Below the pieces are notes generated by a model. The model searched no databases. It was not told the origin of the DNA and saw only the letters and a list, made by a program, of their open reading frames with translations. A stretch of 64,000 bases of DNA from Cylicocyclus nassatus (Eukaryota > Nematoda > Chromadorea > Rhabditida > Strongylidae): positions 758,232 to 822,231 of the forward strand of contig CATQJL010000326.1 in the NCBI GenBank assembly GCA_958299035.1, given 5' to 3'. Of this stretch, positions 3,555 to 60,138 are shown one piece after another. The first letter of the stretch is position 1. Each line of letters begins with the position of its first letter. The position numbers and the translations under genes were made by a program.

Positions 3555-3975
3555 CTATATATTGTGTGCGGATGTGAGCTTGCATAATGATAGCAGAGGC
3601 AAGAGATCATTCGTAATGACAAGACATTCATTTTTATTATTCATAGTAGGACTCTTGAAAGATATCCATGCTGCTTCTAGTATTTTTCGTGCGCAAATCT
3701 CATTCTCAAAAGCCAGCGTTATACATTTCACGTCGAATGAGGTGCCATCGTGCGCTTCAAATCTATGTTTGCCTAAAGGTGATACTTGAGTTCCTCGTTT
3801 CATACTAGCCAAGTGTTCTTCAATTCTAATGCTCAAAGGTCTACCCGTTTCGCCTATGTACAATGCTCCGCAACTTAGACATTCTAATTGGTATACAACT
3901 CCCGATTTTGCACAATCTCCTGGCTTGCCGTAGGGGCAAACAATGCAATCCTTTGATACACATTGTATATCGTAG
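3555..3975 (-). pseudogene. PLE C-terminal cysteine motif and GIY-YIG endonuclease
   Basis: The frame contains CIVCPYGKPGDC and CLSCG, then LYIGETGRPL (the YIG half of the GIY-YIG motif with the following Arg), and ARKILEAAWI with the Glu expected to bind metal. It ends at a stop at 3555. In PLEs this domain nicks the target DNA. It is fused to the RT in the intact element and is cut off here by the inverted insertion. The first ATG in the frame (3863) lies inside the domain, so it is not a real start. Confidence 0.8.
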
Positions 3976-4007
3976 CATCTGTTTCTGACTAGCCGCTTTT
4001 TGATGTG

Positions 4008-4491
4008 ATATTAGTACATGCCTCCTCAGCTCATCCAACAGCACTTAAACATGCCATAATTGGTAACATGTACAAAACTGCTGTAGGAGTATGCACGGGC
4101 GAGAGCGAGCGACTGGAATCTCGAGAATTGGCTACGAAGATTGCTCTCAGTAACGGCTGGGTACATCAACCAGTCTAACATCGTTTTGCAGCTGGGCTCG
4201 AAGGATGCACTGTTTAATCGCTCTGCTGACTTTATCGCAAATGAAAGGTATGCATAGCGGAAGTTTAGTGTCATTGCGCTGTCCATTGCCACTTTGACGT
4301 TTATTAGATTTTCGTATTCGTAAGCGCGTGGCTGTGTTGTATCCGTTACTGAGAGCAATCTTCGTAGCCAATTCTCGAGATTCCAGTCGCTCGCTCTCGC
4401 CCGTGCATACTCCTACAGCAGTTTTGTACATGTTACCAATTATGGCATGTTTAAGTGCTGTTGGATGAGCTGAGGAGGCATGTACTAATAT
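4008..4491. repeat. 149-bp inverted duplication inside the PLE
   Basis: 4008-4156 is the reverse complement of 4343-4491, around a 186-bp spacer. Read on the minus strand, the 4491-4343 arm fits the expected RT C-terminal reading (ESRELATKIALSNGY). The other arm is an extra inverted copy inserted between the linker (ending near 4157) and the cysteine/nuclease part (resuming near 4007). Confidence 0.85.
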
Positions 4492-5789
4492 ATTCTTGGA
4501 GCTTTCCTTTCGATACCATTTAGCATGAATGGTATGTCAGATAAGTGTATCTGGGTGTTTAAATAGAAAAGCCAACCACCGCGAGGGGCTTCTCGTGTGA
4601 GCTTAATGTACCGCGATTGCTGGTTCAGGATGTCAAAACACTCGTCCATTTCGGACTGTGTTGAGGTTATGACGCAGCAATCATCGATGTACCGGCAGTA
4701 CATTAAAGGTAGGCGTACAATTACTGGTGCCTCAATTTTGCTCATGAAACACAATGCGAGTACTGAAGCCAGTCTTTGACCCATCGCAATCCTCGCACCT
4801 GGGAATAGTACCCAGCCCACTTGAAGATGTTACATTTCAAACATTCCCTAATGAGGACCAGTACCAGCCCACTTGAAGATGTTACATTTCAAACATTCCC
4901 TAATGAGGACCAGTAAGCACGCCTTGCTCAAACCAAAGGTTAACATGTTGGAATAGTGCGCATCAAGCATCTCAGACAGTGCTTGCATAGCGGCATCAAC
5001 GTGAACGTTAGTGTATAGGGATGTTACATCAAACGATTCTACAACACTATTTGACCCACATTTTATCTGCCGCAAGCGCTCGACAAATTGGTGTGTGTTT
5101 GAGAAATGCGATGGAACCTTTGGGAGCAATTGGTTCACAATTTTATTTAAAACCCACGAAATTCGGTCGGTGGGACCGCCTACGCAGCTAATTATGGGGC
5201 GGATTTTATACGATTCAGGCGACATAGAGCGGAGATCGTCAGCTGCTACTTTATGCGTTTTTACCAAGTGGTAAAAAACGGGACAGTTTGGATTGTTGAT
5301 TTTCAACCTTCTCACTAATCTATCGTCAAGCCCTACAGACTTTCCCGTATCAGTCCAAACTTTATTCAATTTTCGATATTGCGCTTGGAATTCTTTTTCC
5401 GTAGCAGGATGGTATATTGACGTATCTGACAAGTGTAACTGTGCAATTTTTCTATCCAGCTCTTGGAGAATAACTACCAACTTTCCTCCTTTGTCACTTG
5501 TCGACACCCGGATAGTTCCTGCAGTTACCAATTCACGCACTTCTTTATAGCCTTGTTGTTGTTCTCGCGTCAAGTTTGTCACATGGACTCCCTTGAACCT
5601 GTTCAAAACATGCAAGATTTCACTCGTTAGAATGCGGAATTTAGTATCAGCGGCGAGCACTGGTTGAGGCTCCTTGTAAGATAAGCGCGGAAACGGTATT
5701 GGTGTTAGCATCGAACTTTCAGTGGTTTGTAAAGCTTGCGTATTTTCTTGCTGAGCTTTTATTCTCAGTGAATCGCGTAATCTATGCAA
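4485..5789 (-). pseudogene. PLE reverse transcriptase, frameshifted
   Basis: The upstream frame (5789-4848) carries the PLE-typical STSDKGGKLVVI motif at about residue 98, KIRPIISCVGGPT, and SFDVTSLYTNV (RT motif A, catalytic Asp). The downstream frame (4820-4485) carries the catalytic YIDD box in CRYIDDCCVIT. The two frames are separated by a 52-bp tandem duplication (4815-4866 repeated at 4867-4918). Since 52 is not a multiple of 3, it shifts the frame. Function in life would be target-primed reverse transcription of the element's RNA. This copy cannot encode it intact. Confidence 0.85.
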
Positions 5790-5791
5790 GC

Positions 5792-6247
5792 TTAGCCCAG
5801 TACTTTAAGGTAAAATGAAGCATTTATAATTTGAGAAGGCGAATACGACGGACCGAGACTGAGAAAATCAGTTGCGCGTGCGGACAAATGAATGTCGCCA
5901 ATGATAGTGACTCTTGCGTGAGTATCATTAAGAGCTAAACAGTTAGTAGGGTGGTGGGTCTGAAGAAGGCAAACCTCTTTGTTTTCACTCTTTCCACGTA
6001 ATGCGTCTCGGAGTTGGTCGTACTTCTTGCAAAGTCGTGATTTGACTTTAGACCGTATAGTGCTACAAATCAAGTTCGATCCGTCTTCAATCTCCCTCCA
6101 AATGTCGTCTGGCAAAAGACGTTTACAACTATTTTCTTTACAATTACATTTCAATAACGTGGAGTATAAAATGTTCTTCCTTCGCTCAATAACAAGATTC
6201 AACATGTTGTTATAAATGTTGTTTATCTTCTTGTTATGTTCTGGCAA
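5792..6247 (-). pseudogene. PLE N-terminal region
   Basis: A 151-residue frame whose C-terminal part has the conserved PLE pre-RT pattern: a short hydrophobic stretch, then LSLGPSYSPS at about residues 128-137. This segment precedes the RT in Penelope and Poseidon-type elements. The frame closes a few bases before the RT frame opens, so a single small indel near 5795 separates the two. The methionine at 6247 gives a plausible start, but the true start is not established. It is not a separate host gene, because the downstream frame continues the same polyprotein. Confidence 0.7.
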
Positions 6248-6250
6248 TCC

Positions 6251-6640
6251 ACAGATGTTTGTGATGGATCTTGCTCAAAGTCGGTACATGGGGATTATTA
6301 GAGCCGCTGATGACGAATATCGTAGTCATTTCGCGCGATAGCGCCATTTTCTGGGTTTACATTGGGTACACATAAGAAGCTAAAAGGATTTCGCTGAAAC
6401 TTTGAGGGGGGCTAACTGACATGCTGAATTACGAATATCATACTCCTTCAACATTTTGAGGCGATTTCACTGAGTTATGGTAGGTAAACTGCAGAGGGGC
6501 GAGATCTCAGTTTTGGCTGAAACTCGATCTAGAGAGATTCGACCTTCTGACCACGTCTAGAACACTCTCGTTGCGTTTTGAGACCTTTTCGCAGAGTTAC
6601 GGTAGGTACATGGCAGCGGGTAAAAATCATGAACCTGCCC
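6251..6640. other. no gene seen
   Basis: Contains two related ~110-bp segments (about 6360-6480 and 6490-6610), each ending in a GTTACGGTAGGTA-like block, which suggests an old tandem repeat. No coding signal. Confidence 0.4.
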
Positions 6641-7226
6641 TCAGATAATCGTCGGGGGCAGGCGGCCATGCGATTTATGGGCGGGCGGGCACCGGAAAAA
6701 TAGTTCGCTGATTTCTTGCGGTCCGCTTGCAGATATTTGAAGAAATTTTAGCGAATTTTGTACGAATGTTTGGAGAACAATCGCGGTTTCCTTATAGATT
6801 AGCTGCGGCGCAGTGGCCGCATTCTCGCGGACTTTCCGCGAGAATATGCAAAATTTTCGGGGGCCGCACGGTCCTTTGTGGAGGACCGCGCAACCCCCAG
6901 GTACTTTCCGCTGAGAGAAAGTACCTCAAACTTGAGTAATTAAACCAACGGTGACACCTCTGCCACATAGAGTCTCATCTTTTCTCGGCGTACGCCCGAA
7001 ATTGCGTAAAAAGGGTCCGAGCGCCTGCTGAAAGTTCGGCCAGCGTTTGCTGAAAGAGATTATCTGACGAGCGCCTGCAGAAAATTCTGTGTTGCTGCCC
7101 GCTGGCAGAATATTAGACAGTAAAGAAAGTACCGCTCGCTGAAGGTTTGGTCACGCCCCAAAATTCTGCTGACCGCTTGCAGAAAAGCGCGAGTTTGCGG
7201 ACCGCCTGCCCCCGGCGATTATCTGA
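6641..7226 (+). mobile_element. TIR element family A, copy 2 (complete)
   Basis: 586 bp, bounded by TCAGATAATCGTCGGGGGC and its reverse complement. Repeats of CTTGCTGAAAG-like words run through the 3' half. Non-coding. I could not read a target duplication. Confidence 0.75.
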
Positions 7227-8904: not shown

Positions 8905-9373
8905 CGAATAGTGCCAAACTAATATCGAACTCGTAATCAGCATGCTCGATTACCCCCCTGTGCAAATCCCAGCCCCGTAGCTCAAACTTTGCAAAAAATC
9001 GATAAAATCGGTAAAAATAATAAAGGATTTCAGATGCTAATATTGTAATCGTAATCAGCATGCTCGATTACCCCCCTGTGCAGACTCCCAGCCCCATAGC
9101 TTGAACTTTGCAAAAAAATCGATAAAATCGATAAAAGTAATCGATAATCCTGAAAATTAATATCGTATTCGGAATCCCCATGCTCGATTACCCCCCCCCC
9201 TGTGCAAACTCCCAGCCCTGTAGCTCAAATTTTGCAAAAAATCGATAAAATCGATATCGATCGACGACGAAAAGTAGCCTATGACACCCGCCGGGGCCCG
9301 AAATGTATGTATGCCAAGTTTGGTCCGGATCGGTTCAGAAATGGAATTTTCTATTTGGAACATACGTACGTAC

Positions 9374-10367: not shown

Positions 10368-11203
10368 CAGGGCCCGACACAGGTGGCTTACAAGGCAAGC
10401 TAGATATCGTTTTGGAATAAAAAGCAAGGGGGACATCGTTTGAGCGGAAACCACAGCTCCCCTCCCCCTCCCTACCCACACAACCGCCTTCTTCCTTTAT
10501 GTCATCTGTCATCTTCTATAAAGGACGCAAATTGTCATTCCTGCCTTATCGATCCCGTTCCCGCGGAAACCAAAAATCTTCTGTTTCAACAGGTTCGCCG
10601 GGTAAGCGCACGAATTCAACTTGCCTCGAAATAAATTGTTTGCAGCGAAGAGAAAATGAATCGACACCAAAACTGGTGTGTAGATGAGCAGTAGGGAGTT
10701 AGGAGTATGTGCAAAAAAATATGAAAAAATTATGTAAACTGAAGGCGTGGCAAACTTTTTTCGGAGTTAGGTGGCTTTCCAGCCACCTGGACAGCCACCT
10801 GAGGGGCTGTAAAAAGAAAAAGTCATAAACTTCTCTTCCTTCACATATTTTTTTCACATGTTTAACACAACTTTGTTCTACATTGAAAACCCTACAACTA
10901 AGTTTTTGAATCTCCCTAAACCCCTTCTTCCCCGCTTAGTTGCAGCCCTCCAAATATTTTGTATGGCGGCGGCAAGTCTGTTCCAAACGCGAGGGTGCGC
11001 GCCGGACCCGCATGCCGCCAATTCGGAGGATACGGACATCTTCAGTTTTTTCCGTCTGTTTCTTTATGTTTTGTTCCATTATTTCTCGTTATTCGTTTTC
11101 ATCCATTCATGATCGCGTCATAGGTGATGTCGTATTCTTGTGGCAAAGTCTACGGTGACTTCGCTTTTGGAGAATTGAAAAAGCCACCTCATGCCAAGCC
11201 CTG
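10368..11203 (+). mobile_element. hAT-type non-autonomous element, family B copy 2
   Basis: 836 bp, starting CAGGGCCCGACAC and ending with a diverged inverted end (GCCAAGCCCTG). An exact 8-bp duplication CTAAGAAA flanks it (10360-10367, 11204-11211). The left subterminal sequence matches copy 1. Internally it holds a hairpin of GGTGGC/GCCACC near 10770-10800. No transposase. Confidence 0.8.
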
Positions 11204-13740: not shown

Positions 13741-14925
13741 TCTTATATATAAAGCTGAATGTCTGTTTGTATGTATGTATGTATGTATGTATGTCTGTAT
13801 GTCTGTACGTATGTTCCGAATAGAAAATTCCATTTCTGAACCGGTCCGGACCAAACTTGGCACACATACACTTCGGGCCCCGGCGGGTGTCATAGGCTAC
13901 TTTTCGTCATCGATCGATATCGATTTTATCGATTTTTATCGATTTTTTTGCTGAGTTCACCTACGGGGCTGGGAGTTGGCACAGGGGGGTAATCGAGCAT
14001 GGGGATTCCGAATACAATATTGGTTTTCAGGATTATCGATTACTTTTATCGATTTTATTGATTTTTTTTGCAAAGTTTGAGCTACGGGGCTGGGAGTTGG
14101 CACAGGGGGGTAATCGAGCATGGGGATTCCGAATACAATATTGGTTTTCAGGATTATCGATTACTTTTATCGATTTTATCGATTTTTTGCAAAGTTTGAG
14201 CTACGGGGCTGGGAGTTCGCACAGGGGGTAATTGAGCATGGGGATTCCGAATACAATATTGGTTTTCGGGATTATCGATTACTTTTATCGATTTTATCGA
14301 TTTTTTTGCAAAGTTTGAGCTAGGGGGCTGGGAGTTGACACAGGGGGGTAATCGAGCATGCTAATCACCCCCAAGGGGGGTGATCAGCATGCTCGATTAC
14401 ACCCCTGTGCCAAATATCAGCCTCCTAGCTCAAATTTTCAACAAATCGATAAAATCGATAAAAGTAATGGACGATCTTGGAAACTAATATTGTATTCGTA
14501 ATCTGCATGCTCGATTACCCCCTGTGCAAACTCCCAGCCCCGCAGGTCAAACTTTACAAAAAAATCGATAAAATCGATAAAAGTAATGGACGATCCTGAA
14601 AACTAATACTGTGTTCGTAATCAGCATGCTCGATTGCCCCCCTGTGCAAAATCCCAGCCTCGCATGTCAAAATTTACAAAAAATCGATAAAATCAATAAA
14701 AGTAATCGATAATTCTGAAAACTAATATTGTATTCGGAGTCCCCATGCTCACTTCCCCCCTGTGCCAACTCCTAGCCCTGTAGGTGAACTCTGCAAAAAA
14801 TCGATAAAAATCGGTAAAATCGACATCGATCGATAACGAAAAGTGGACTGTGACACCCGCCGGGGCCCGAAGTGTATGTGTGCCAAGTTTGGTCCGGATA
14901 CGGCGGAGCCGGGTAAGCCAGCTAG
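13741..14925 (+). mobile_element. Helitron unit C4 with quasi-palindromic interior
   Basis: A complete family-C unit: TC start, tetranucleotide run, four 150-bp units in one orientation, a palindromic centre near 14375, units in the opposite orientation, subterminal inverted repeat, hairpin and CTAG. Very similar in layout to 53743-54801. Confidence 0.8.
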
Positions 14926-24270: not shown

Positions 24271-24825
24271 CTGATGTTCCAGTTGTTCCAATTTGCTCCA
24301 GTTTCAAAAAATGGTACTCACAAGGGAAGTCCGATTAGTCGAAGTGGCCTTTCCGAATGAGTCATATACCATTTTGAAGAGCTTTAAACGCTGATTGCGA
24401 ATCTGATTTCATTATCTGTCGAGCGCCTCTGCATGCCTAGTTATAAATGTTTTTTTGGAGCGAAAAACGAAAGCAGAATTCAAGTAAAATTAACTATTTC
24501 GGGCTTTTTAGCGCCTAAATAGAGCAACATGTAGTATGAGTGTTTTGGACAGAAGGTATCCTTTGAAACGGAGTGCTCTGATAACCAACATTGGACCATT
24601 TGAGCAATTCTGACGAATTTTGCTCTAATTACACATTTAATTTTTGGGAGACGGCCCTTCTGAACCGAGCCCGCGCTACCGTAATTCAAGACGCAGGACG
24701 CGGGCGGGCGCGCTGCGTTCCCTGTGGACGAGATGGTCGGCTCTCTTCTCCATGCAATCAATAACGCCGTTTCGACATCTCCTTCCCTCGCCAAAACTCT
24801 GTTACTGTGTTCCTTTGATTCTCAC
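24271..24825. other. no gene seen
   Basis: Frames on both strands at 24480-24850 overlap a GC-rich patch (24655-24760). No recognised domain. Confidence 0.35.
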
Positions 24826-28850: not shown

Positions 28851-31800
28851 TTATTTATTTATTTATTATCCTTGCATTTTCCCAATGAAAGAAAAAAGTT
28901 TTTTTTTCTATTCGGGGTCTGCTGCTCTTGTGAGTCTCTTCCACAGCTTGCAATTCAAAGCTTGTTCTTCTTCTAGCTTGAGCTCTCTTATATCTGCTTT
29001 AATTTTATCTAACCATCTCAGTTTCGGTCTTCCTTTTGGTCTTTTTCCCGATATATCTATTGACGTGCTCGATCTGGTAATGTGGTCTTCTTCACTTCTT
29101 TTCACATGGCCGTACCATTGCGTCTCTCCTGCAATTTTTTGACAACTGGGGCGACTTTCATCATGGTTCGTACGGTGTCATTTGTGACATGGTCCATCAT
29201 TGTGATGCCTAGAGTCCATCGCAGCATTTTTGTTTCCATCGTACTAAGCTTTCGCTCTTCGTTGTGCGTGATAGGCCAACATTCGCAGCCGTACATCGCA
29301 GTCGGTCGGATCATCGTACGATAGATTTGCGATTTTAGGTATATTGGCATCCGCTTGTCACACATAATTCCTGTGAGGTCTCTCCACTTCAACCAAGCTG
29401 CGTTTATTCTGTCGCATATCTCGTCTTCTAGCGTGCCATCCGCAGAAATGCGACTTCCTAAGTATTTGAAAGAGGTAGTCTTCTTTATCAGAGTGTTTCC
29501 CATTTGAATAGTTCCAGGCGTTTGGAAACCCACTTCCATGTATTCCGTTTTCAGAATGTTCACCTTGAAACCATGTCGTTCAAGCTGGGTTTTCCACATC
29601 TGTACGTCCATCTCCAGCTCCTTCCTGCTTCTTGCCATCAGGAGCACATCATCAGCGTATATGAGTGCCCATGGGGGTTGACGTATAAAATTTCTAACTA
29701 TCGCGTCAACAACAATTATGAAGAGGAGGGGTGAAAGGACGGATCCTTGATGTACGCCAATGTTTATGTGGAAATCCTCTGATCGTCCTGCTGCTGTCTC
29801 TACATAGCTGGTTGCACCTTGATAGATCATTCTTACCCACCGAACATATTCCTCTGGCACTATGTGCTTCTGTAGGGCCCACCAGATCATGTTATGTGGC
29901 ACCTTGTCAAATGCTTTCTCTAAATCCAGGAATGCAGCATGTAATTCACATTGTTTTTCTCGACATCTTTCCATAAGTGTTCTAACGATGTGAATTGCAT
30001 CAGTTGTGCCGCAGCCTTTCAAAAATCCGCATTGATTGGGTGCAAGCTCCACTATATCTCGAAGTCGTGTCTCCAATATTCTTTCGAATATTTTCAACGT
30101 GTGACTAATGAGACGGATGGGCCGATACGTGGAGCAGTCGGCTATGTCGCCTTTATTTTTCCATATTGGTATCGTTATACTTTTATACCAGTCGCTAGGC
30201 ATTCTCTTGATTCTCACTATTTGGTTTAGTAGTCGCGTTAGCCACGAAATTCCATTTTGTCCACACTTCTTCCAGAATTCGTTGGAGACATCGTCTGGGC
30301 CTGTCGCTTTGCCGTTCTTTGTCTTCGAAATAGCGACGCGGACTTCATCTTCTGTAATGGCTGGCACTGGTCCGTGAACTGGTTCAGCTTTTATGGTAGA
30401 TGTACATTCGCAGCTCGCGGACGCTAACTCTGCAAAATATGCTCGCCATCTTTTATTTATATCTTCTGGTCCTTTCAACATCCTCCCCTGTTCGTCTCTA
30501 ATACTGTAGAAGTGCTCTATGTCTTTCATGGCTTCAGTCCTTCTTCGGGCCAAACGGTAGATTTCACGTACACCTTCGGAAGTATGCAATTTTCTGTACA
30601 ACTCGGTTACATACGTTTCTTTCGCTTCCCTTACTCTCTTTTTTGTTGTACGTTTCGCTTCTAGATACTTCCGATGAGCATCTTCTGTCCTTGTTCTTTG
30701 CCATACTCTAAAAGCTGATTTCTTATTTCTTATCACAAGCTGAATCTCTTCGTTCCACCACCATGTTTCTCTGTTGAGTCTAGGTCTTCCTGGTTTCGTG
30801 CGCCCTAGTATATCTCCAATTACCTGATGAACATTTTTCTTTAGATTCGCCCACGACTGTTCTACATCTTCTTCTAACTCAGGTAGAGTAGATTCTAATG
30901 CAACTGTGGCGCTATGGTCTTCTTTGAGCTTCCACCATTTGATGTGCTCTCTTTGCTCTGTCGTTTTCCATCTTTGCTTGTCGGATGGAATATTTAAATC
31001 CAGTAAAAGTGGCTTATGCTGCGGTATGCATTCTTCACCTGGAATGACCTTGCTGTTCTTCACATACTTGAGTTCACTCTGCCTTACTGCCCAAAAGTCT
31101 ATTTGTGACTTTCTGCCTCCACTGACATACGTAATCAAATGACTGTCTTTCTTTATGAAATAGGTATTTGCCAGCGCTAAGTTATGAGCTGTAGCAAACT
31201 CAAGAATGCGTTCACCATCTTCATTTCGTACTCCGTATCCATGGTCTCCATGACATTTTTCTGTGCCACTCCTTTGCTTTCCGACATGGCCGTTGAGATC
31301 TGCTCCAAGCAGGAGCATCTCTTCTGATGGTAAAGATCGGATATAATCATCGAGTTTATGCCAGAACACATTCTTTTCAACCTCACCGCAACCGGTTTGT
31401 GGTGCGTAGGCAGTGACTACTCGTAAAATCTGCTTCCCATTTTCAATCCTGATGCTCATAAGGCGGTCACTTACTCTATCAACGTTAGTTATTTTCTTTC
31501 TCAGTCTTTCGCAGACAACTATCCCTACGCCGTTTCTGCCATCACTTACTCCGTTGTATAGGAGCTTGAAACCGTCTCCTATATCGCGCGACTTTTGCCC
31601 TTTCCATCTGGTTTCTTGAATGCAGGCGACATCCACTCTGCGTCTCTTAAGAAGATCTGCCAGTTCGCGGTGTCGCGCCGTCAAAGATCCTACGTTGATG
31701 GTTGCAAGTCGAAGCGATTCTGAGAACTTTTGTCGTTGCTTGTACCTATGATGAGCCAAGTTTTTTGAAAATCTTCTTTTCGCTCGTTGAGACAGTAGCT

Positions 31801-32018
31801 CTCGCTCTTTGTTCATGTTCGTTAGGCTCAATTTCTCGTTGCTTTCGGGGAACGCCCTAGCTGTAAGTCTTTGATCTCGCTGAGACATAAAAGAGCATAC
31901 CAATCGATGCGACGATTCGTCTTCTTCAGCCGGCTTGTCGCTTGCTTCCCTGTGGGTAAGCAGCCTGACGCTGGGAACAACCACTCACGATGGTCGAAGA
32001 ATGGTGAGTGAATGACGA
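28851..32018 (-). mobile_element. RTE-clade LINE, near full length
   Basis: 3168 bp on the minus strand between two exact 18-bp direct repeats. The 3' end is a short (AATA)n-type tail (28851-28868), as in RTE elements. A single long ORF carries an AP endonuclease and reverse transcriptase. The 5' leader is only about 130 bp to the first ATG. No 5' truncation is evident from the ORF content. The exact duplication suggests a fairly recent insertion. Confidence 0.93.
28908..31888 (-). pseudogene. RTE polyprotein (AP endonuclease and reverse transcriptase), one frameshift
   Basis: The first in-frame ATG is at 31886-31888. The frame is open upstream to 31984 but without an ATG. Endonuclease motifs: INVGSL (about residue 64), QETRW (91-95), YAPQTG, LGADLNGHVG, SQIDFW and the final PQHKPLL histidine. 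RT motifs: TGPDDVSNEFW, YRPIRLIS, AAFLDLEKAFDKVP, GVHQGSVLSPLLF, and the catalytic YADD near residue 745, then FKYLGS. The frame ends at 29102. The conserved C-terminal block resumes one frame over (WYGHVKRSEEDHITR, to a stop at 28908), so one small deletion near 29118 breaks the protein. In life it nicks target DNA and reverse-transcribes its own RNA there. Confidence 0.93.
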
Positions 32019-36345: not shown

Positions 36346-36353
36346 GCCGGTAC
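36346..36353. repeat. 8-bp target duplication, left of the gene-carrying hAT element
   Basis: GCCGGTAC, repeated exactly at 40073-40080. Confidence 0.85.
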
Positions 36354-36630
36354 CAGGGCCCGGCACGAGTCTGTTTCTAGAGTTTTTAAAAACGAAGTCC
36401 CCCTGACTTTCGAGAATTTTACGAAGTCCCCTTTGAACCTTGCCCTACTCCCCCCCCGCCGTCGCCATCATAGTCTGGATCGACAAGCGCATCTACATAC
36501 ATTTCCAAAGGATCTCTAAGTATTTCCATAACGCGTTTTGAGTCCAACAAACCAGTTGACCATTCTCATACAGACCTGAGATTGGAAAATTGGAAAAAAA
36601 TTAAATTGAAAAAAAAATTGAAAAATCCAG

Positions 36631-38481
36631 CGAAAATTAAGGCTCCGATGGAATATACCATAGAAGACTTCTGGCGGATGGTCTTCCAAGAAGGATGTCC
36701 ACACATTGTCAATTTAACAAAGGTATCCCTGGCCTGAATTTCGCTACCCTAACAGGCTTCACCTAATTAAATTCCAGATTATTGAGATGGTAAAGTAAAA
36801 AGTACGCAGTATTGGCCATTGCAAGCTGGTCAGTATCAAAGTTCGGAAAAATGTTTGTCAATACTAAAAAGGTAGTAAATATCAGATCTTAAGCCTGAGA
36901 ATGTGAACTTTCCCTAATTCGAGCTCTATATTAACACATTGACGACAATACGACCCACCGGTGGGTCGTACGTGTCCTGCCATTTCGGACAATACGACCC
37001 ACCGGTGGGTCGTAAGTTTTCGAAAGCTCTTACTTTGTCAGCATGCGATGGAATTCTACGGATTCTAGCACATGATTGGGGACACCTTGGCGAAGCTCCA
37101 GCCAGAGTGGTCCGGGTTCGGGATACTGTATTGTAATGTTACGGTAGATAAACCCTAGATAGAGGTAAGGCACGACTTTAGCTCAGATTCTTCATAGAGT
37201 GGTGCTGTTTTTGAAAATTCTAGTATACATGCACGAGAACAGGGATGGCACGGGACTGATGTTGGTCCATCGAAAATTATCGATTTTATCAACTTTATTG
37301 ATTTTTCGCGCTGTTTCCCAGAAAGCTCAAACCTCATATATATAGGTTTTTTAGCATGCTGACTACGAAAATAATAGTCTCGAGTTCTGATACCACCTTC
37401 TTACATCAGTTTCTTGATTGTAACGAAAATCCTACCGTACTGCTACCGTAGTCCCACTGTGAGAAAGTAGTGAACAATGTGGACACTATAATCGTGCTCA
37501 GCAAGTGAAATAAACCCAAAACACAATTTTTCACGAAAATCCATGATGTTGGGTTCGTACAGAATGACTGCCGTAATCTTACCGTATACTGTCAAAAACT
37601 GAAACAAATCATATTTTGATAATCAGCGCCTTCGATAACCCTTGTGGGGATATTCTCGGAGACATGTTTTGAATTTCTTCCAAAAAGACTACCATTTCGG
37701 ACAATACGACCCACGGGTGGGTCGTAAGTTTGGCAGAGCAAAAAAGGCTCCTGTCCGAAATGGCAGTAAACGAAAAATCGGCCTTGTCGTCAATGTGTTA
37801 AGGTTGAATCGGAAGGAAAGTTCATGTTATACAAGGTAGAAGTCTTACTATGGTTGCTCTAATTCAAATAAGTGAAGGTCGGCGTGCTAATCAGAAATTG
37901 CAAATACAGTATTATCCAGTTGATTCAAGGTACTCCATATGACCAGCTGGCCAGATCGTGTCCTACCTATGAGATGAGCGGTCGCCATGTGCTTCGTTTG
38001 ATTCGTCAAGTTAGCGTAAGCATGACCATGCAAAAGCTGCCTTATCGAACTTGCAGGATCTAAATTTAGCGGCTGGTAGAAGTTTTTGCTTTTCAAGGTG
38101 ACAAATTGGCAACTGTCCTATAATGATGCATTGCTCGGCTGGAGTAGGCAGAACTGGCACAATCATTATGATTGACATCATTCCAAGGAAATTATTCAGC
38201 TGCAAGGAAGTCGATGTAAGCATGAAAAGAGAGAAAAAGTAATTTGTAAAAAGTTTTATATTTTTAATTCAGATAGTAGAGGTAATCAAAACCCTTCGCA
38301 ACCAACGCGCATCCTGCACCCAGCTCGAGGGTCGATATGTTTTCGTTATACTTAGCGTTCTTGGTTATATAAAGGTGAGTACCGAATGCATTTCATCCAT
38401 GATTCCGTTTGTACACTGTTTTTGCAGATCAAGTGTCCAAAGTACAAGGAACGAGTGAACAAGTACATCGAAGATTTCTGA
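36631..38481 (+). pseudogene. protein tyrosine phosphatase, 3' half (7 exons), captured and decayed
   Basis: Exons: 36631-36722 (EDFWRMVFQEG, LTK), 36778-36873 (QYWPLQAGQY, FGKMFVNTKK), 37803-37871 (VESEGKFMLYKVEVL, GCSNSN), 37930-38015 (HMTSWPDR, GRHVLRLIRQV), 38098-38215 (MMHCSAGVGRTGTIIMIDI), 38273-38374, 38428-38481 (stop). The signature HCX5R loop is at 38129-38152, with Cys and Arg present. The WPD loop is also present. This order is the PTP catalytic domain, which removes phosphate from tyrosine. The last three exons join in phase. Single-base losses break the frame in the second, third, fourth and possibly fifth exons, mostly at short homopolymers. The N-terminal part of the domain is missing, because the transposon end lies 276 bp upstream. 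Confidence 0.88.
36935..37797. mobile_element. piggyBac-like TTAA element in a PTP intron
   Basis: 863 bp with inverted ends CACATTGACGACAA / TTGTCGTCAATGTG, flanked by TTAA (36931-36934, 37798-37801). The TTAA right flank abuts the splice acceptor (TTAAG) of the next PTP exon. Subterminal 22-bp palindromes TACGACCCACCGGTGGGTCG(TA) occur at 36949-36970 and 36993-37014, with a near copy at 37705-37726. No transposase frame. Confidence 0.85.
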
Positions 38482-38795
38482 ACTACGATATATCTTGCAC
38501 AGTCTTAAAACCTTATGAAAGACAGATACTTCAAATTCAAGCCAAACAGTTGAACGATGAAATGATGACAATAAATTAAAGACTCGAGGCCATGTGTATT
38601 GTTGCGTTAGCTGCGCACGATAGACAAATTTAACAAACACATTCAATGGCATAACAAATTTTCACCTCCTCTCTCAACAAAAAACATTCGAGTAAATCGT
38701 AAACGTAACAATTCATCAACAGATAATAGCGTGCACAGATCATAGAGTATTACATGTATAAACAAAGCCTACTTACATGACTGTATAGCTGATAT

Positions 38796-39215
38796 TCATT
38801 TGTTCCGTCCTCATTTCGTTATGAGAGCCTTGATCTTGTTGAGAAGGCCTACATATTGCGAGTGTTCGTGGTGCGTAGCGTAAGCAACCAGAGTTGTGCA
38901 GAACTGGGCATCAAATGCGGTAGCGGACAAAAAGCAAGTCGTGGAGATCCTAAATATCTTCATATTGGTAGAAAACCAAGAGCTTGTTGCTTTAGTAACT
39001 GCAGAAAGATCTGTGATCGTGATTGCTATCACATCCACCTCAATACCTTACAGCGCCATTCTGAATACCAGCAAAAAGATGAAGCACGATACGCAGAAAA
39101 AATTAATGAAGATCAGAGAAGTTATTAACGCTGTTCGTTGCAGGGGGCAGAACCACAGCATAAAAAGCAGTCAAATCGCAAATTTTTCTTCAGCCAAACA
39201 TTCTGATAAAATATG
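38796..39215 (+). other. open region between PTP and EFL1 fragments; weak SXP/RAL-2 (DUF148)-like frame
   Basis: After an acceptor-like TTGTGCAG, the plus frame 38897-39216 reads as helical, with NWASNAVADKKQVVEIL and SAILNTSKKMKHDTQKKLMK. This pattern loosely resembles the nematode-specific SXP/RAL-2 domain. Two other frames and the minus strand (39038-38811) are also open, so the assignment is weak. Confidence 0.3.
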
Positions 39216-39287
39216 AAGTTAGGAAACTATAATACGATGTTCTGAATATCAGCATGTTGCAGTAGATTACAAAAAGCAAACATTTAG

Positions 39288-39895
39288 ACCAAAGGCCAAT
39301 TAAACCATTCCTGGAAACGAGTGTGTCAGATCCTCAACTGGCAAACATCCAGATCCAGGAGCAAACTACCGTAAGACCTACTTTTTCCTAGAAACTGAGT
39401 TGATCTCTCGATCACTTACTGCACCATAATCATGTTTCTCTCAAATTCTTGTTTAGGAATGCCATCTCAGGAGCGACTCCCTCTATATTCGTTTGAGGGT
39501 TGCTCCGCTACCAAATGAAGTAGTAGCTTTGCTCGAAGAGTCGGCAGAGGTTCTGAAGTCTATAAGAGGGGGGCATATAGATGACAAGACTTTGACAGAA
39601 TTCAAGTGAGACGTTTAGTACCGTATCTTTGTGTACTGCTCACTCATACCTTTTCCAGGGCAAAGCTGTTGGCTGTTTGCGAAGAGAGTCTGCAATATTA
39701 TCGAGGGTCTTGGTGGTACAGAAAGAGCAAAGAAGAGATCGCTGAACTTGTTGAGAGGGTTAGTGGATAAAAAACCTAAAAATCTTGGAAAAGATTTTGA
39801 AATTTTCCAGATTTGGTGTTTTGGTCCAGGCAGAGCCAAAGTTAACATTCTCATCAATGGAACTCCTAACCATCATAGAAAGCCTTGGGACAGCA
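39288..39895 (+). CDS. EFL1 (elongation factor-like GTPase 1) fragment, four in-frame exons
   Basis: Exons 39288-39370, 39457-39605, 39659-39758 and 39811-39895 join in phase with canonical borders (GTAAGA...TTTAG, GTGAGA...TTCCAG, GTTAGT...TTCCAG, then GTGAGT). The product contains KPFLETSV, RLRVAPLPNEVVALLEES, a helical linker, and RIWCFGPGRAKVNILING. That order matches the EFL1/Ria1 core (PFRETI, PLP..V..LLE, IWSFGP..GPNIL). EFL1 is an EF-2-like GTPase that works with SBDS to release eIF6 from 60S ribosomes. Only an internal segment is present: no start, GTPase domain or C-terminus. It sits inside the hAT element, so it is probably a captured copy rather than the working gene. Unlike the PTP piece it has no visible frameshift. 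Confidence 0.8.
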
Positions 39896-40072
39896 GTGAG
39901 TGACTTGTTAATCAATTTCCACCCTCCTCAAGCTTTCCAGAATCCGAGCTGGACATGTGCAAAAATTTTTTTCCGGGGCTTCGCCCCGGACCCCGCAAAA
40001 ACGATATCCCCTTTGCTTTTTGCTCCAAAAACGAAGTCCAGCCTGCTTCTAGACGATCTGTGCCGGGCCCTG

Positions 40073-40080
40073 GCCGGTAC
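40073..40080. repeat. 8-bp target duplication, right of the gene-carrying hAT element
   Basis: GCCGGTAC, identical to 36346-36353. Confidence 0.85.
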
Positions 40081-41838: not shown

Positions 41839-42002
41839 GCCGGCCGGAAGGGGGTGGGGGAACGAAAGGCGCCAGGTCCAGCCGCCTTTCGCGGCCAGCT
41901 GGTCCTTTCGCAACGTTGTTGCATGTCGTTCCAGGACCAGCAGTCCGCGGAGGCGGCTGGACCTGGCGGCTTTCGTTCCCCCACCCGCCGGAAGGCCGTC
42001 GT
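41839..42002. repeat. GC-rich long hairpin
   Basis: Arms of about 65 bp around GGGGGAACGAAAGGCG...CAGGTCCAGCCGCC, with a second inner pair GGTCCTTTCG / GTCGTTCCAGGACC. Flanked by GCCGGCCGG-rich repeats (41770-41840, 42000-42020). Possibly a small foldback element. Confidence 0.7.
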
Positions 42003-51265: not shown

Positions 51266-51846
51266 TCAGACAATCGCTGGGGGCAGGCGGCTATGCGATT
51301 TATAGGCGGGCGGGCACCGGAAAAATAGTTCGCTGATTTCTTGCGGTCCGCTTGCAGTATTTGGAAGAATTTTAGCGAAATTTTGGACGAATGCTTGGAG
51401 AACAATCGCGGTTTCCTTATAGATCAACGGCGCAGTGGCCGCATTCTCGCGGACTTTCCGCGAGAATATGCAAAATTTTCGAGGGCCGCACGGTCCTTTG
51501 TGGAGGACCGCGCAACCCCCAGTACTTTCCGCTGAGAGAAAGTACCTCAAACTTGAGTAATTAAACCAACGGTGACACCTTTGCCATGTAGAGTCTCACC
51601 TTTGCTCGTCGTACGCCCGAAACTGCTTAAAAACTGTCCGAGAGCCAGCTGAAAATTTGACTAGCGCTCGCTGAAAGAGATTATTTGACGAGCGCCTGCA
51701 GAAAATTCTGTGTTGCTGCCCGCTGGCAGAACATTAGACAGTAAAAGAAGTGCCGCCCGCTGAAGGTTTGGCCACGCCCCAAAATTCTGCTGACCGCCTG
51801 CAGAAAACGCGAGTTTGCGGACCGCCTGCCCCTGGCGATTGTCTGA
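51266..51846 (+). mobile_element. TIR element family A, copy 4
   Basis: 581 bp, complete; ends TCAGACAATCGCTGGGGGC and inverted. Lies 15 bp from copy 5 in the same orientation. Confidence 0.78.
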
Positions 51847-51861: not shown

Positions 51862-52440
51862 TCAGATAATCGCCGGGGGCAGGCGGCCATGCGATTTTTG
51901 AGCAAGCGCCGGAAAGCACCGGAAAAATAGTTCGCTGATTACTTGCGGTCCGCTTGCAGATATTTGGAAGATATTTAGCGAAATTTTAGACGATTGCTTG
52001 AAGAACAATCGCGGTTTCCTTACGGATTAGCTGCGGCGCAGTGGCTGCATTCTCGCGGCCTTTCCGCGAGAACATGCAAAATTTTCCGGGGCCGCACGGT
52101 CCTTTGTGGGGGCGCGCAGCCCCCAGGTACTTTCCGCTGAGAGAAAGTGAGTAATTAAACCAACGATGACACCTTTGCCATGTAGAGTCTCACCTTTGCT
52201 CGGTCGTACGCCCGAAACTGCTTAAAAACTGTCCGAGCGCCAGCTGAAAATTCGACTAGCGCTCGCTGAAAGAGATTATTTGACGAGCGCCTGCAGAAAA
52301 TTCTGTTGCTGCCCGCTGGCAGAACATCAGACAGTAAAGGAAGTACCGCCCGCTGAAGGTTTGGCCACGCCCCAAACTTTTGCTGACCGCTTGCAGAAAA
52401 GGGCAAATTTGCGGACCACCTGCTTCCGGCGACTATCTAA
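51862..52440 (+). mobile_element. TIR element family A, copy 5
   Basis: 579 bp. Left end TCAGATAATCGCCGGGGGC. The right end is slightly decayed (GACTATCTAA). Confidence 0.75.
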
Positions 52441-53742: not shown

Positions 53743-54801
53743 TCTTATATATAAAGCTGAATGTCTGTCTGTCTGTATGTCTGTCTGTCTGTCTGTCTGT
53801 CTGTACGTATGTGCGGAATAGAAATTTTTATTTCTGAACCGATCGGGACCAAACTTGGCACACATATACTTCGGGGCAGGGAGCGTGTCATAGGCTACTT
53901 TTCGTTATCGATCGATATCGATTTTATCGATTTTTATCGATTTTTTTGCTGAGTTCACCTACGGGGCCGGGAGTTGGCACAGGGGGGTAATCGAGCATGG
54001 GGATTCCGAATACAATATTAGTTTCCAGGATTATCGATTACTTTTATCGATTTTATCGATTTTTTTGCAAAGTTTGAGCTACGGGGCTGGGAGTTGGCAC
54101 AGGGGGGTAATCGAGCATGGGGATTCCGAATACAATATTGGTTTTCAGGATTATCGATTACTTTTATCGATTTTATCGATTTTTTTGCAAAGTTTGAGCT
54201 ACGGGGCTGGGAGTTCGCACAGGGGGGTAATCGAGCATGCTGATCACCCCCAAGGGGGGTGATCAGCATGCTCGATTACACCCCTGTGCCAAATTCCAGC
54301 CCCCTAGCTCAAATTTTCAAAAAATCGATAAAATCGATAAAAGTAATGGACGATCCTGAAAACTAATATTGTATTCGTAATCTGCATGCTCGATTACCCC
54401 CCTGTGCAAACTCCCAGCCCCGCAGGTCAAACTTTACAAAAAAAATCGATAAAATCGATAAAAGTAATGGACGATCCTGAAAACTAATATTGTGTTCGTA
54501 ATCAGCATGCTCGATTTCCCCTGTGCAAAATCCCAGCCTCGCATGTCAAAATTTACAAAAAATCGATAAAATCAATAAAAGTAATCGATAATTCTGAAAA
54601 CTAATATTGTATTCGGAATCCCCATGCTCACTTCCCCCCTGTGCCAACTCCTAGCCCTGTAGGTGAACTCTGCAAAAAAATCGATAAAAATCGGTAAAAT
54701 CGACATCGATCGATAACGAAAAGTGGACTATGACACGCTCCCTGCCCCGAAGTGTATGTGTGCAAAGTTTGGCCCCGTGCGAAGCCGGGTACGCCAGCTA
54801 G
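53743..54801 (+). mobile_element. Helitron copy C8 with quasi-palindromic interior
   Basis: 1059 bp, TC start and CTAG end. Same layout as 13741-14925: units forward, palindromic centre near 54250, units reversed. The site in G copy 1 (near 17760) shows ATATA^TAG uninterrupted. Confidence 0.85.
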
Positions 54802-56591: not shown

Positions 56592-58960
56592 ATGATGATA
56601 ACAATATGCCTGACAGCTCTTCTTCTCATTGATACGGCATCCGCAAATGTGCTGTCCTACTCTAAATATAGAGTGAAAGTTAAAGGCAGTGGACAGGCAA
56701 AATGGACCCCTGTCAGATTTTGGTAGTTTTGGGTAGTGGACCCCCCAATTACACCGTAGCCCCAACCCCAACTTCCAGATGATGCGCTAAGTCCTGAAAA
56801 AAGCGCTTCAAACTTCCACCAATAACGCCCACTCAATGGAAGTGGGCGGGGCTGGTGGAGTTTTGAAGCGCTTTTTTCAGGACTTAGCGCATGAATTGGA
56901 ATGTGGGGTTGGGGCTACGGTGTACTTGGGGGGTCCACTACCCGAAACTACCAAAATCTGACAGGGGTCCATTTTGCCTGTCCGCTGCCTTTAACACGAT
57001 TTCGGAATCATAATCACAACTATGTCTCAACTACAAGGATTGATGAAAATCTCGACGAAGAAAGGAATAAACAAAGTACCACTTTCGCCAAAGTACCGCA
57101 CAACAAAAAGTCGAGTTCAATGGCGCACTGATAGGAGCAACGCAGTACTCCGACATCACTATTTGCCCACCAAGAGACATTTGCGATATGATCAAATGCA
57201 TAGTTTGTGCAGATTTGTTTCGAAATCCACACTGCACCCCTAACACTGCGGTAGCAATCACAGCAGTTTGCGCATACCTTATAATGCTGCTCATTTGATT
57301 CATCTGCTACTTTGGACTTTCAGGAAGACATCTTCTGCGCTAAACTAGCGAGAACGACATGCCAACTGAAAACCACCTTGCTCCTGCAAATGATCGACTT
57401 TCCGAGCTTCTAGAAAGACAATTCCGATCTCTACTAATCCCGTCAAAGATGATCACGTTCGCGGCTATCGCAACATGTCTCGTCACAGGAGTCAATTCAT
57501 GCCAGTACACTCACACACTCTCGTCAAGGAACACGGTTTGCACGAGGATCAACAACGCGCTCAACTGTCGCTACACTATCGAAAACAGGAGAACTTTGAG
57601 TGAGCACCGACCTCAAGCTTGCTTCGGATTACATGATAACAACAGTTGGCAGCATGGAGATACAACTTCAACAAGTCGTACTCCAGTGCAATCCTGAGTT
57701 TTGTTCTACTCCAGAAATGCTGAGATAGTGGCCGAATCAGCAAAACGATGCCACTTTTCTGGATCATTCTCATCTAACACATGTGCTCACACAAGTCAGC
57801 GATTCTACATACCTGAACTTCACAACACCTACGAATTTCCTGGATACTCAAGGTGCATTTCGTCATGTGAAAGCATCCGATGTGGTTGCCTCCTACCTCT
57901 AATCGAATGTCTATTTCTCTCACTCATATGGAAAACCGCAAAATGAAACAATTTACCAAGTGTTCCACTGCCCAACTTGGGATGAATCGGCATCATCAAA
58001 CTTACAGTGTTAATGGACCAAGAGAAACCACCATTGCCACAATCACCGCGCAGACTACTCACACTCAAAAGTACGCTAATCTAACACTGGGATTTGTGAC
58101 CACGCCAACGATTCCGCTACTGAGCTCTATATTTTTGCAAGCCGTCAACACCACTAAAGCGGAAACTGCCTTGGTCGACAACGACAATGTATTCGCGCTC
58201 AGGTGCCCACCGATGGAGAGTTCTCAAAACTTCTCAGTTTGCGATGTAGAAGACACTTGCAACTGTTACCCGACGGAACCAGGCTAACGCATCTGCAAGA
58301 ACACGAACATATTGAATTTGACCACATCAGTGGACAGTAGACTGCCACTATCTTCCTCATTCTTACATCTACAAGAAGCTCATGGAAGAGTACTTGGAGT
58401 CAGCCACAAATCCATAGTCGACGTCACTATCAGCACGACTGTGGAATGGAATACAGCGAGTGTTGTCAACAACGAAGACTGCGACATCACAGCTTCACCG
58501 ATTCAAGGATGCTACAACTGCATAACCGGTGTGCACGACTTACCTTCTCTTGCCATTCACACACTCAACAATGATAGAGATGATGTGCAAGCAGAATATC
58601 TATGCTGCCTTTTGCATTGAGAACACAGTGCAGATAACAGTTGCTATACTTTAAGCGGCCGTCGCTAGATATGTCGACAGATGTTCACTAAGATGCGGAA
58701 CGAAGAGCCACGTATTCAACATATCCGGTATCCTGGCATATCACCCACACGAAGACGGAGCACTCTTTACGAATGCTAGCGAGGAGGCTTCGTACGTCAA
58801 CGTCTACAACTATCATGACATTGGACACATCATCAGCGTCGCCCTCTCGTCATGGAAGATAGTCGTCGTAGCTACCATTAGAATCGCAGCGGCGTTAGCT
58901 TTCATCATCTCTTATGTGTCCCAAACTTTGAAATTGCTACTAATGTGTGAATTTTGTGAT
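56592..58960 (+). pseudogene. envelope-like glycoprotein frame of the BEL/Pao element (phlebovirus G2-like), broken
   Basis: A start at 56592 opens a frame with a hydrophobic N-terminus (ICLTALLLIDTASA) that looks like a signal peptide. It is cut at 56680 by a TTAA element. Downstream frames (57359-57697, 57880-58287, 58312-58620) are rich in Cys, Thr and Asn. They include CDVEDTCNCY and GCYNC, the spacing seen in Phlebovirus_G2-type class II fusion proteins that nematode BEL/Pao elements carry. A hydrophobic stretch near 58870-58920 could be the membrane anchor. Stops and frameshifts break it in several places. Confidence 0.6.
56684..56990. mobile_element. TTAA palindromic MITE, family D copy d, inside the envelope frame
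   Basis: 307 bp. Ends AGGCAGTGGACAGGCAAAAT / inverted, TTAA at 56680-56683 and 56991-56994. Nearly perfect palindrome with arms CAGATTTTGGTAGTTT. Confidence 0.88.
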
Positions 58961-59560: not shown

Positions 59561-60138
59561 TCAGATAATCGCTGGGGGCAGGCGGTCCGCAAACTCGCGC
59601 TTTTCTGCAGGCGGTCAGCAGAATTTTGGGGCGTAGCCAAACCTTCAGCGGGGCGGCACTTCTTTTACTGTCTAATGTTCTGCCAGCGGGCAGCAATACA
59701 GCATTTTTTGCAAGCGCTCGTCAAATAATCTCTTTCAGCGAGCGCTAGTCGAATTTTCAGCTGGCGCTCGGACAGTTTTTAAGCAGTTTCGGGCGTACGG
59801 CCGAGCAAAGGTGAGACTCTACATGGCAAAGGTGTCACCGTTGGTTTAATTACTCACTTTCTCTCAGCGGAAAGTACCTGGGGGCTGCGCGGTCCCCCAC
59901 AAAGGACCGTGCGGCCCCGGAAAATTTTGCATGTTCTCGCGGAAAGTCCGCGAGAATGCGGCCACTGCGCCGCAGCTAATCCATAGAGAAACCGCGATTG
60001 TTCTTCAAGCATTCGTTTTTAATTTCGCCAACTTTCTTCCAAATTTCTGCAAGCGGGCCGCAAAAAATCAACGAACTATTTTTCCGGTGCGCGCTTGCTC
60101 AAAATTCGCATGGGCGCCTGCCCCCGGCGGTTATCTGA
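59561..60138 (-). mobile_element. TIR element family A, copy 6
   Basis: 578 bp, complete, inverted relative to copies 2, 4 and 5. Ends TCAGATAATCGCTGGGGGC / inverted. Confidence 0.78.

Follow-up and report, generated by a model that had tools for sequence, protein, structure and literature searches.

Capture of host-gene DNA by transposons with terminal inverted repeats (TIRs) has already been reported in animals, a nematode included. The survey of Tan et al. (2021; PMC8277862) describes 370 such Pack-TIRs in 100 animal genomes, 208 of them hAT elements, with four Pack-TIRs in the worm reference genome; the captured DNA has a median length of 224 bp and is 13.4% exonic, and four cases are multicopy. 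Its pipeline accepts only elements with a single, unique parental source at 90% identity and 100-5,000 bp of internal sequence, a design by which composites like the element treated here would be missed. Another nematode case is Turmoil-1 of C. elegans, a DNA transposon that holds sequence from rsp-2 and cpg-3 (Sela et al., 2008; PMC2572040). The present analysis concerns positions 36354-40072 of a 64,000-nt stretch of Cylicocyclus nassatus DNA (the window), which belongs to an assembly of 514,686,895 bases in 369 contigs. C. nassatus is a strongylid of horses. The segment is very probably one of several copies of a non-autonomous TIR transposon, hAT-like in type, which took up copies of host-gene DNA and thereafter transposed and multiplied with this cargo as a single unit.

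Plant Pack-MULEs sometimes carry fragments from several loci, and the Helitrons of animals form multi-gene mosaics that multiply. The window element is also a multiplying multi-gene mosaic, and it differs from Helitrons in that these have neither target site duplications (TSDs) nor TIRs. With the animal Pack-hATs of the survey it shares a TIR element outside, host-gene DNA inside and a parent locus elsewhere, and the multicopy cases there likewise show several TSDs and distant parents. In contrast to those animal Pack-TIRs (PMC8277862), it holds pieces of four genes that stem from three loci, its gene-derived cargo amounts to about 3.3 kb in the copy L032, and it exists in six copies and grew stepwise. 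(L031-L058 label the genome loci compared, C1, C112 and C223 are contigs, and P0001-P0068 are public proteins.) Plant Pack-MULEs and Pack-TYPE elements likewise capture and shuffle gene fragments (PMC8903248) and amplify them as a unit, in other superfamilies and other hosts. Turmoil-1 is similar in being a nematode DNA transposon with the sequence of two host genes; there the pieces lie inside the inverted terminal repeats, whereas the cargo here is internal, derives from four genes and keeps its introns (PMC2572040). By titles and the starts of abstracts, no nematode hAT element with several captured genes was found in the open-access literature, which is not proof of absence. As far as that literature tells, a multiplied composite that was assembled stepwise out of four genes at three loci is new. 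The original prediction had treated such capture as known mainly from plants; on this point it is partly superseded, and what stands of its novelty is the composite, multi-source and multi-copy form.

The element is bounded by perfect 13-bp TIRs (left, CAGGGCCCGGCAC, 36354-36366, plus strand; right, 40060-40072, minus strand) and by exact 8-bp TSDs (GCCGGTAC, 36346-36353 and 40073-40080), just as had been predicted, and the terminal sequence of its family is CAGGGCCCGGC. The TIRs belong to the two ends of a transposon backbone. The left end of 104 bp (36354-36457, plus strand) is 92% identical to the element L053, and the right end (39950-40072, plus strand) is 95% identical to it across 120 bp. 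The subterminal regions had also been said to match the opposite ends of an 855-bp relative at 238-1092, which has the same ends in the opposite orientation (minus strand; TSDs at 230-237 and 1093-1100, GAAGGTAC/AAAGGTAC, 7 of 8 bases alike with one mismatch). Indeed, the left end matches the right end of this relative at 76.6% over 77 columns, and the right end matches its left end at 78.7% over 108 columns. Without the TIR these opposite-end pairs score 40 and 72, above all 200 shuffles (maxima 25 and 29), whereas the same-side pairs score 17 and 21 (shuffle maxima 25 and 23) and do not exceed theirs. A right-end fragment of the same family is found at 10368-10447 (minus strand, 78%). hAT elements typically have short CAGGG ends and 8-bp TSDs. 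Both traits are present here: the TIR is short and starts with CAGGG or similar, and the 8-bp TSD is exact in seven of nine elements checked at both ends (window, L031, L032, L033, L036, L053 and L056/L058), the other two being the relative at 238-1092 and L050, in which 6 of 8 bases agree. The name hAT-like thus refers to the end sequence and the TSD length only.

The cargo comes from four host genes, namely CNOT3, a protein tyrosine phosphatase (PTP) gene, MAM33 and EFL1, at three loci; only PTP and EFL1 had been predicted, and this count proved too low, MAM33 and CNOT3 having been missed. From left to right the element consists of the left end, CNOT3, filler, PTP, the MAM33 tail, a deletion scar, EFL1 and the right end. 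The CNOT3 (Not3) fragment of 135 bp (36462-36596, minus strand) contains one exon and an intron edge, and a 32-bp AT-rich filler without known source (36597-36628) separates it from the PTP fragment (36629-38483, plus strand). The latter starts with the last 13 bp of intron 4 and continues through exons 5-11 with the introns kept, in agreement with the predicted 3' half, and gives PF00102 at 9.1e-42 in an X-patched read-through. By homology to the gene, exons 5-8 lie at 36642-36722, 36778-36874, 37806-37880 and 37933-38015, and exons 9-11 at 38097-38215, 38273-38374 and 38428-38505, the stop codon of the window copy being at 38481-38483. Frameshifts are present in exons 6-9 of the window copy. 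In exon-wise alignments, one-base deletions in exon 6 (nt 65) and exon 7 (nt 68) are found in all six PTP-bearing copies and others in some, so the PTP cargo was already defective when the element began to amplify. The large PTP 'intron' (intron 6) is for the most part a nested, TTAA-flanked element of 871 bp (36931-37802), which we take to be piggyBac-like. It has relatives elsewhere in the genome at 87-91% (among 40 scored out of 6007 candidates) and inner palindromes (TACGACCCACCGGTGGGTCGTA), and it is missing at the same place in the four other full copies.

Downstream of PTP, the MAM33 (mitochondrial glycoprotein) fragment (38811 to about 39289, minus strand) comprises the final exon, stop codon included (38811-38813), and the greater part of the final intron. 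Alone, this piece scores 18.5 bits, below the Pfam cut-off of 21.9, and its only match in a PDB search has an E value of 1.4; it is identified as MAM33 because its source gene is MAM33. At the scar (39289-39292), about 1.33 kb is gone relative to L032, and the lost sequence held further MAM33, transposon body and the upstream part of EFL1. The EFL1 fragment (39292-39951, plus strand) retains its introns, with one exon from the scar to about 39372 and others at about 39457-39608, 39660-39758 and 39811-39897, plus the first bases of the next exon. Four EFL1 exons had been predicted; their presence is confirmed (PF25118, 3.2e-26), but the first of them begins at the 1.3-kb deletion scar of the window copy.

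PTP, MAM33 and EFL1 genes and a CNOT3 locus are located elsewhere in the genome. At C223:52.155 Mb (L047), 11 exons encode exactly P0001, the 354-aa product of the PTP gene, and behind this gene, tail-to-tail, stands the gene whose pieces give MAM33 (PF02330, 2e-12); the two have the same tail-to-tail arrangement in the element. L032 and L036 are collinear with L047 from 6443 to 4400 or 4399, introns and intergenic stretch included, L031 and L033 match it from 6418 to 4399, and in the window copy the match starts at 6443 and stops at 4750, at the beginning of the deletion. This collinearity through introns and intergenic DNA means that PTP and MAM33 were captured as one block, at an identity of 73-83% by blast piece. 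The EFL1 source is at C112:77.9 Mb (L048 1292-2239, 78-80%), and coding stretches flank the captured part on both sides. The CNOT3 locus is at C223:58.597 Mb (L051, 87%), and its exon pieces give Pfam Not3 at 2.7e-49 (2.2 kb read). Neither the end motif nor blast matches to the transposon ends were found in these three source stretches. Within the window, no missing exons stand beside the element, and P0001 and the three source loci match inside the element only, apart from two P0001 rows at chance level and three matches of L047 that look like repeats (24315-24490, 41854-41987). The idea that this locus is the only home of the genes was rejected, and so was a chance placement of gene pieces between unrelated transposon ends. 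Retrocopies and Helitrons also pick up gene pieces, and either could be considered as the vehicle. Since the introns are kept, a processed retrocopy was rejected, and since a TSD and TIRs are present, so was a Helitron; the genes moreover lie in both orientations, and the probability left to this alternative is close to nil. The host sequence was copied at the DNA level, with introns.

The finished mosaic has transposed repeatedly. A search with the PTP-MAM33 block, in which all nine candidates were scored, gave 14 matches; these come from the source gene, from six copies of the element and from a single PTP-like exon with a weak match (75%). Five of the copies (window, L031, L032, L033 and L036) have both ends and five exact, differing TSDs (GCCGGTAC in the window, and GTTCGTAG, TGCAGGCA, TCCCTAGG and ATCAGGAG). 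The sixth, at C1:26.14-26.17 Mb, has been broken apart by insertions; of its two TIRs, the right one alone was observed. Nothing is collinear among the flanks of the PTP-bearing copies apart from scattered repeats (10 rows). For L033, the insertion point is crossed by uninterrupted repeat relatives in the window (6701-7104, 51326-51725, 51928-52318 and 59684-60078; 82-89%), the best junction-spanning ones being 405 bp long at 89% and 87%. The short relative at 238-1092 is inserted in the same repeat family, with uninterrupted relatives at 73-77% (e.g., 6703-7123, 77%); this family is therefore the target of two hAT-like elements. Repeat counts in the genome are lower bounds. L031 and L033 share 99.9% identity across the PTP-MAM33 block and 99.7% across EFL1 (99.0 and 99.7% in two long blast pieces) and have a 989-bp nested insert in common, yet their TSDs differ, which indicates recent, separate moves. 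Of the five, the window copy has diverged furthest, its identity to the remaining copies being 87-88% for the PTP block, a value that carries an alignment fault (MAFFT misplaced exon 6 around the nested insert), and 94% in EFL1; it alone has the 1.3-kb deletion and the TTAA element. A segmental duplication or pseudogene cluster with coincidental transposon ends would agree with the decayed state of the cargo and its transposon-rich surroundings. Against this stand five copies with the same ends and five exact TSDs, the uninterrupted site related to L033, and sources on two other contigs; for the group of copies it is refuted by the TSDs and the non-collinear flanks, and for this locus it deserves hardly any credence. 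Capture, which the original prediction had proposed, is borne out by the kept introns, the source loci elsewhere and the other copies with the same cargo at different TSDs. With its TIRs and TSD, host-gene interior, parent loci elsewhere without transposon ends, retained introns and mobility as a unit, the element is upheld as a Pack-TIR (Pack-TYPE).

Related elements preserve different stages of cargo growth. A search with EFL1 plus the right end, with 40 of 3949 candidates scored, gave 22 right ends alone and 18 places with EFL1, which are the EFL1 gene, the six PTP-bearing copies, ten others that combine EFL1 with the right end, and a truncated one. L056/L058 has EFL1 and an exact TSD (TTCCCATT), with no CNOT3 or PTP match. 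L049 has EFL1 and lacks PTP. L050 (with L054 and L057) has a longer CNOT3 piece and EFL1 without PTP, and its right TIR is worn. Elements with EFL1 and no PTP, one of them with a longer CNOT3, show that the cargo was added stepwise. In L050 (C1:39.37 Mb), 0.7 kb inside the EFL1 piece (1241-1957) also matches its own reverse complement at 84%. In L032, 565 bp between MAM33 and EFL1 are transposon body, found at many other places including L052; among 40 scored out of 1884 candidates for this body, five are in PTP-bearing copies and 35 elsewhere. This segment (L032 2439-3004) had been tried as a fifth captured gene, which was rejected. None of the cargo genes was seen in L052 in the comparison made. 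EFL1 lies between the body and the right end, and CNOT3 and PTP-MAM33 between the left end and the body, with transposon sequence flanking each position; the backbone has two capture places. In phylogenetic trees, the six PTP-bearing copies stand apart from L049, L050, L056 and the gene with ultrafast bootstrap values of 97-100 (97 without L056; with L056, 100 for EFL1 and 97 concatenated), and in the tree of the body, which contains only three PTP-bearing copies, these split off with 100. The PTP-bearing form has a single origin. A further element, L053 (69-3299), has the same ends, an exact TSD (GTTTGAGA) and different contents, such as a proline-rich frame (minus strand, 1189-1377) without a Pfam match, and it perhaps contains another captured gene; nothing meaningful was obtained by Pfam from nine open reading frames of L052 and L053.

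In the proposed course of events, a backbone of about 100 bp of left end, about 565 bp of body and about 120 bp of right end was filled at two places. EFL1 entered between the body and the right end, and CNOT3 and, later, the contiguous PTP-MAM33 block between the left end and the body. Each capture may have occurred by template switching during repair of a break inside the element, either through gap filling or through fork stalling and template switching (FoSTeST); the product would then have been mobilised by a transposase acting in trans. Both routes have been proposed for animal Pack-TIRs (PMC8277862). At the junction of MAM33 and the transposon body there is a 2-bp overlap (AC), and the EFL1 piece appears to reach the right end after only a few bases of its next exon. 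Such junctions suit break repair with template switching, without proving it. A different origin would be aberrant transposition, in which an end is bypassed or composite elements join and trim host DNA, and composite elements could also yield multicopy cargo from distant loci with transposon sequence in between. However, the capture edges fall inside introns and exons of the source genes, the source stretches have no transposon ends, and the 32-bp filler and 2-bp overlap fit repair, so that aberrant transposition is the less likely route, though one to be taken seriously.

Several observations weigh against repair-linked capture by a hAT-like element. Microhomology is clear at one junction only and may be due to chance. 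Pfam scanning of selected, not all, open frames of the window copy found no transposase, nor did an autonomous partner come to light, for which no genome-wide search was completed, and the seven exact TSDs are without a clear common hAT pattern. Both points would also agree with another TIR superfamily that makes 8-bp TSDs and captured its cargo in the same manner; the CAGGG ends combined with 8-bp TSDs, which are typical of hAT, make this superfamily change quite unlikely. Cargo and source genes differ by 13-28%, which makes the captures old and the mechanism not directly readable. This divergence could be explained if the mosaic and its cargo had come by horizontal transfer from another strongylid. 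Against transfer, the best of 64 proteins for the PTP piece is P0001 of C. nassatus itself (82%), followed by one of Necator americanus (72%), and all five EFL1-fragment proteins are from C. nassatus, in a search that reached only proteins of 62-196 aa and hence no full-length EFL1; we regard transfer as very improbable. Six of eight insertions have no uninterrupted related site among the loci compared (window, L031, L032, L036, L053, whose left flank is just 68 bp, and the copy at C112:41.15 Mb). As for the history of the cargo, no resolution comes from the right-end block by itself (130 columns), and the trees do not settle whether CNOT3 or EFL1 was captured first: rooted with the gene, they place L050 deepest, though CNOT3 is common to L050 and the PTP-bearing group.

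The cargo has also entered public gene sets. The predicted C. nassatus model P0028 (185 aa; 38123-39903, plus strand) is encoded exactly by the window copy in six exons (38123-38215, 38273-38374, 38428-38463, 39472-39606, 39660-39758 and 39811-39900 plus stop). It splices PTP exons to EFL1 exons at 38463/39472, its five junctions are readable as GT..AG, with split codons read from the sequence, and the frame stays open across all six exons, joining the PTP signature loop HCSAGVGRTG to the EFL1 domain. Altogether, seven deposited gene models have this cargo; besides P0028 they are P0026, P0044 and P0065-P0068, which, judging by their sequences, seem to be located on other copies. In P0044, a Kunitz domain is linked to PTP exons from one copy of the element; this model may represent a host gene that is spliced into the transposon. 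By default, the element would be parasitic and the chimeric models would be by-products of imported splice signals. A bolder view is that of an ongoing exon-shuffling machine in an animal, in which the hAT-like family keeps adding host-gene pieces and the splice sites brought in yield new chimeric genes. We consider this unlikely; if true, one or more of the predicted models could give rise to a novel, expressed protein, or else to antisense RNA directed at CNOT3 or MAM33.

The rest of the window contains other mobile sequences. A 960-aa open frame at 29102-31984 (minus strand) with endonuclease and reverse transcriptase domains (PF03372, PF00078) is a non-LTR (long terminal repeat) retrotransposon. 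At 3555-6274 (minus strand), pieces of reverse transcriptase and GIY-YIG in separate frames, both below Pfam cut-offs, presumably represent a Penelope-like element. A Phlebovirus G2-like glycoprotein domain at 57871-58287 (plus strand; PF07245, 1.6e-10) is perhaps a remnant of a retrotransposon envelope. Tandem arrays with a unit of about 115-121 bp and ATCGATAAAATCGAT-like motifs occupy 2318-2604, 8916-9256, 13924-14819 and 53922-54699. Scans of the window with Rfam and for tRNA genes gave no matches.

This locus thus provides an animal case of one TIR transposon gathering DNA from several loci, unrelated to each other, step by step, a process better known from plant Pack-MULEs. The earlier stages, with EFL1 only or with CNOT3 and EFL1, and the source genes occur together in a single genome whose contigs reach 107 Mb, so that the order of captures and their joints can be studied directly. 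It is also a warning that the gene sets of parasites hold transposon-borne chimeras labelled as phosphatases and EFL1 proteins.

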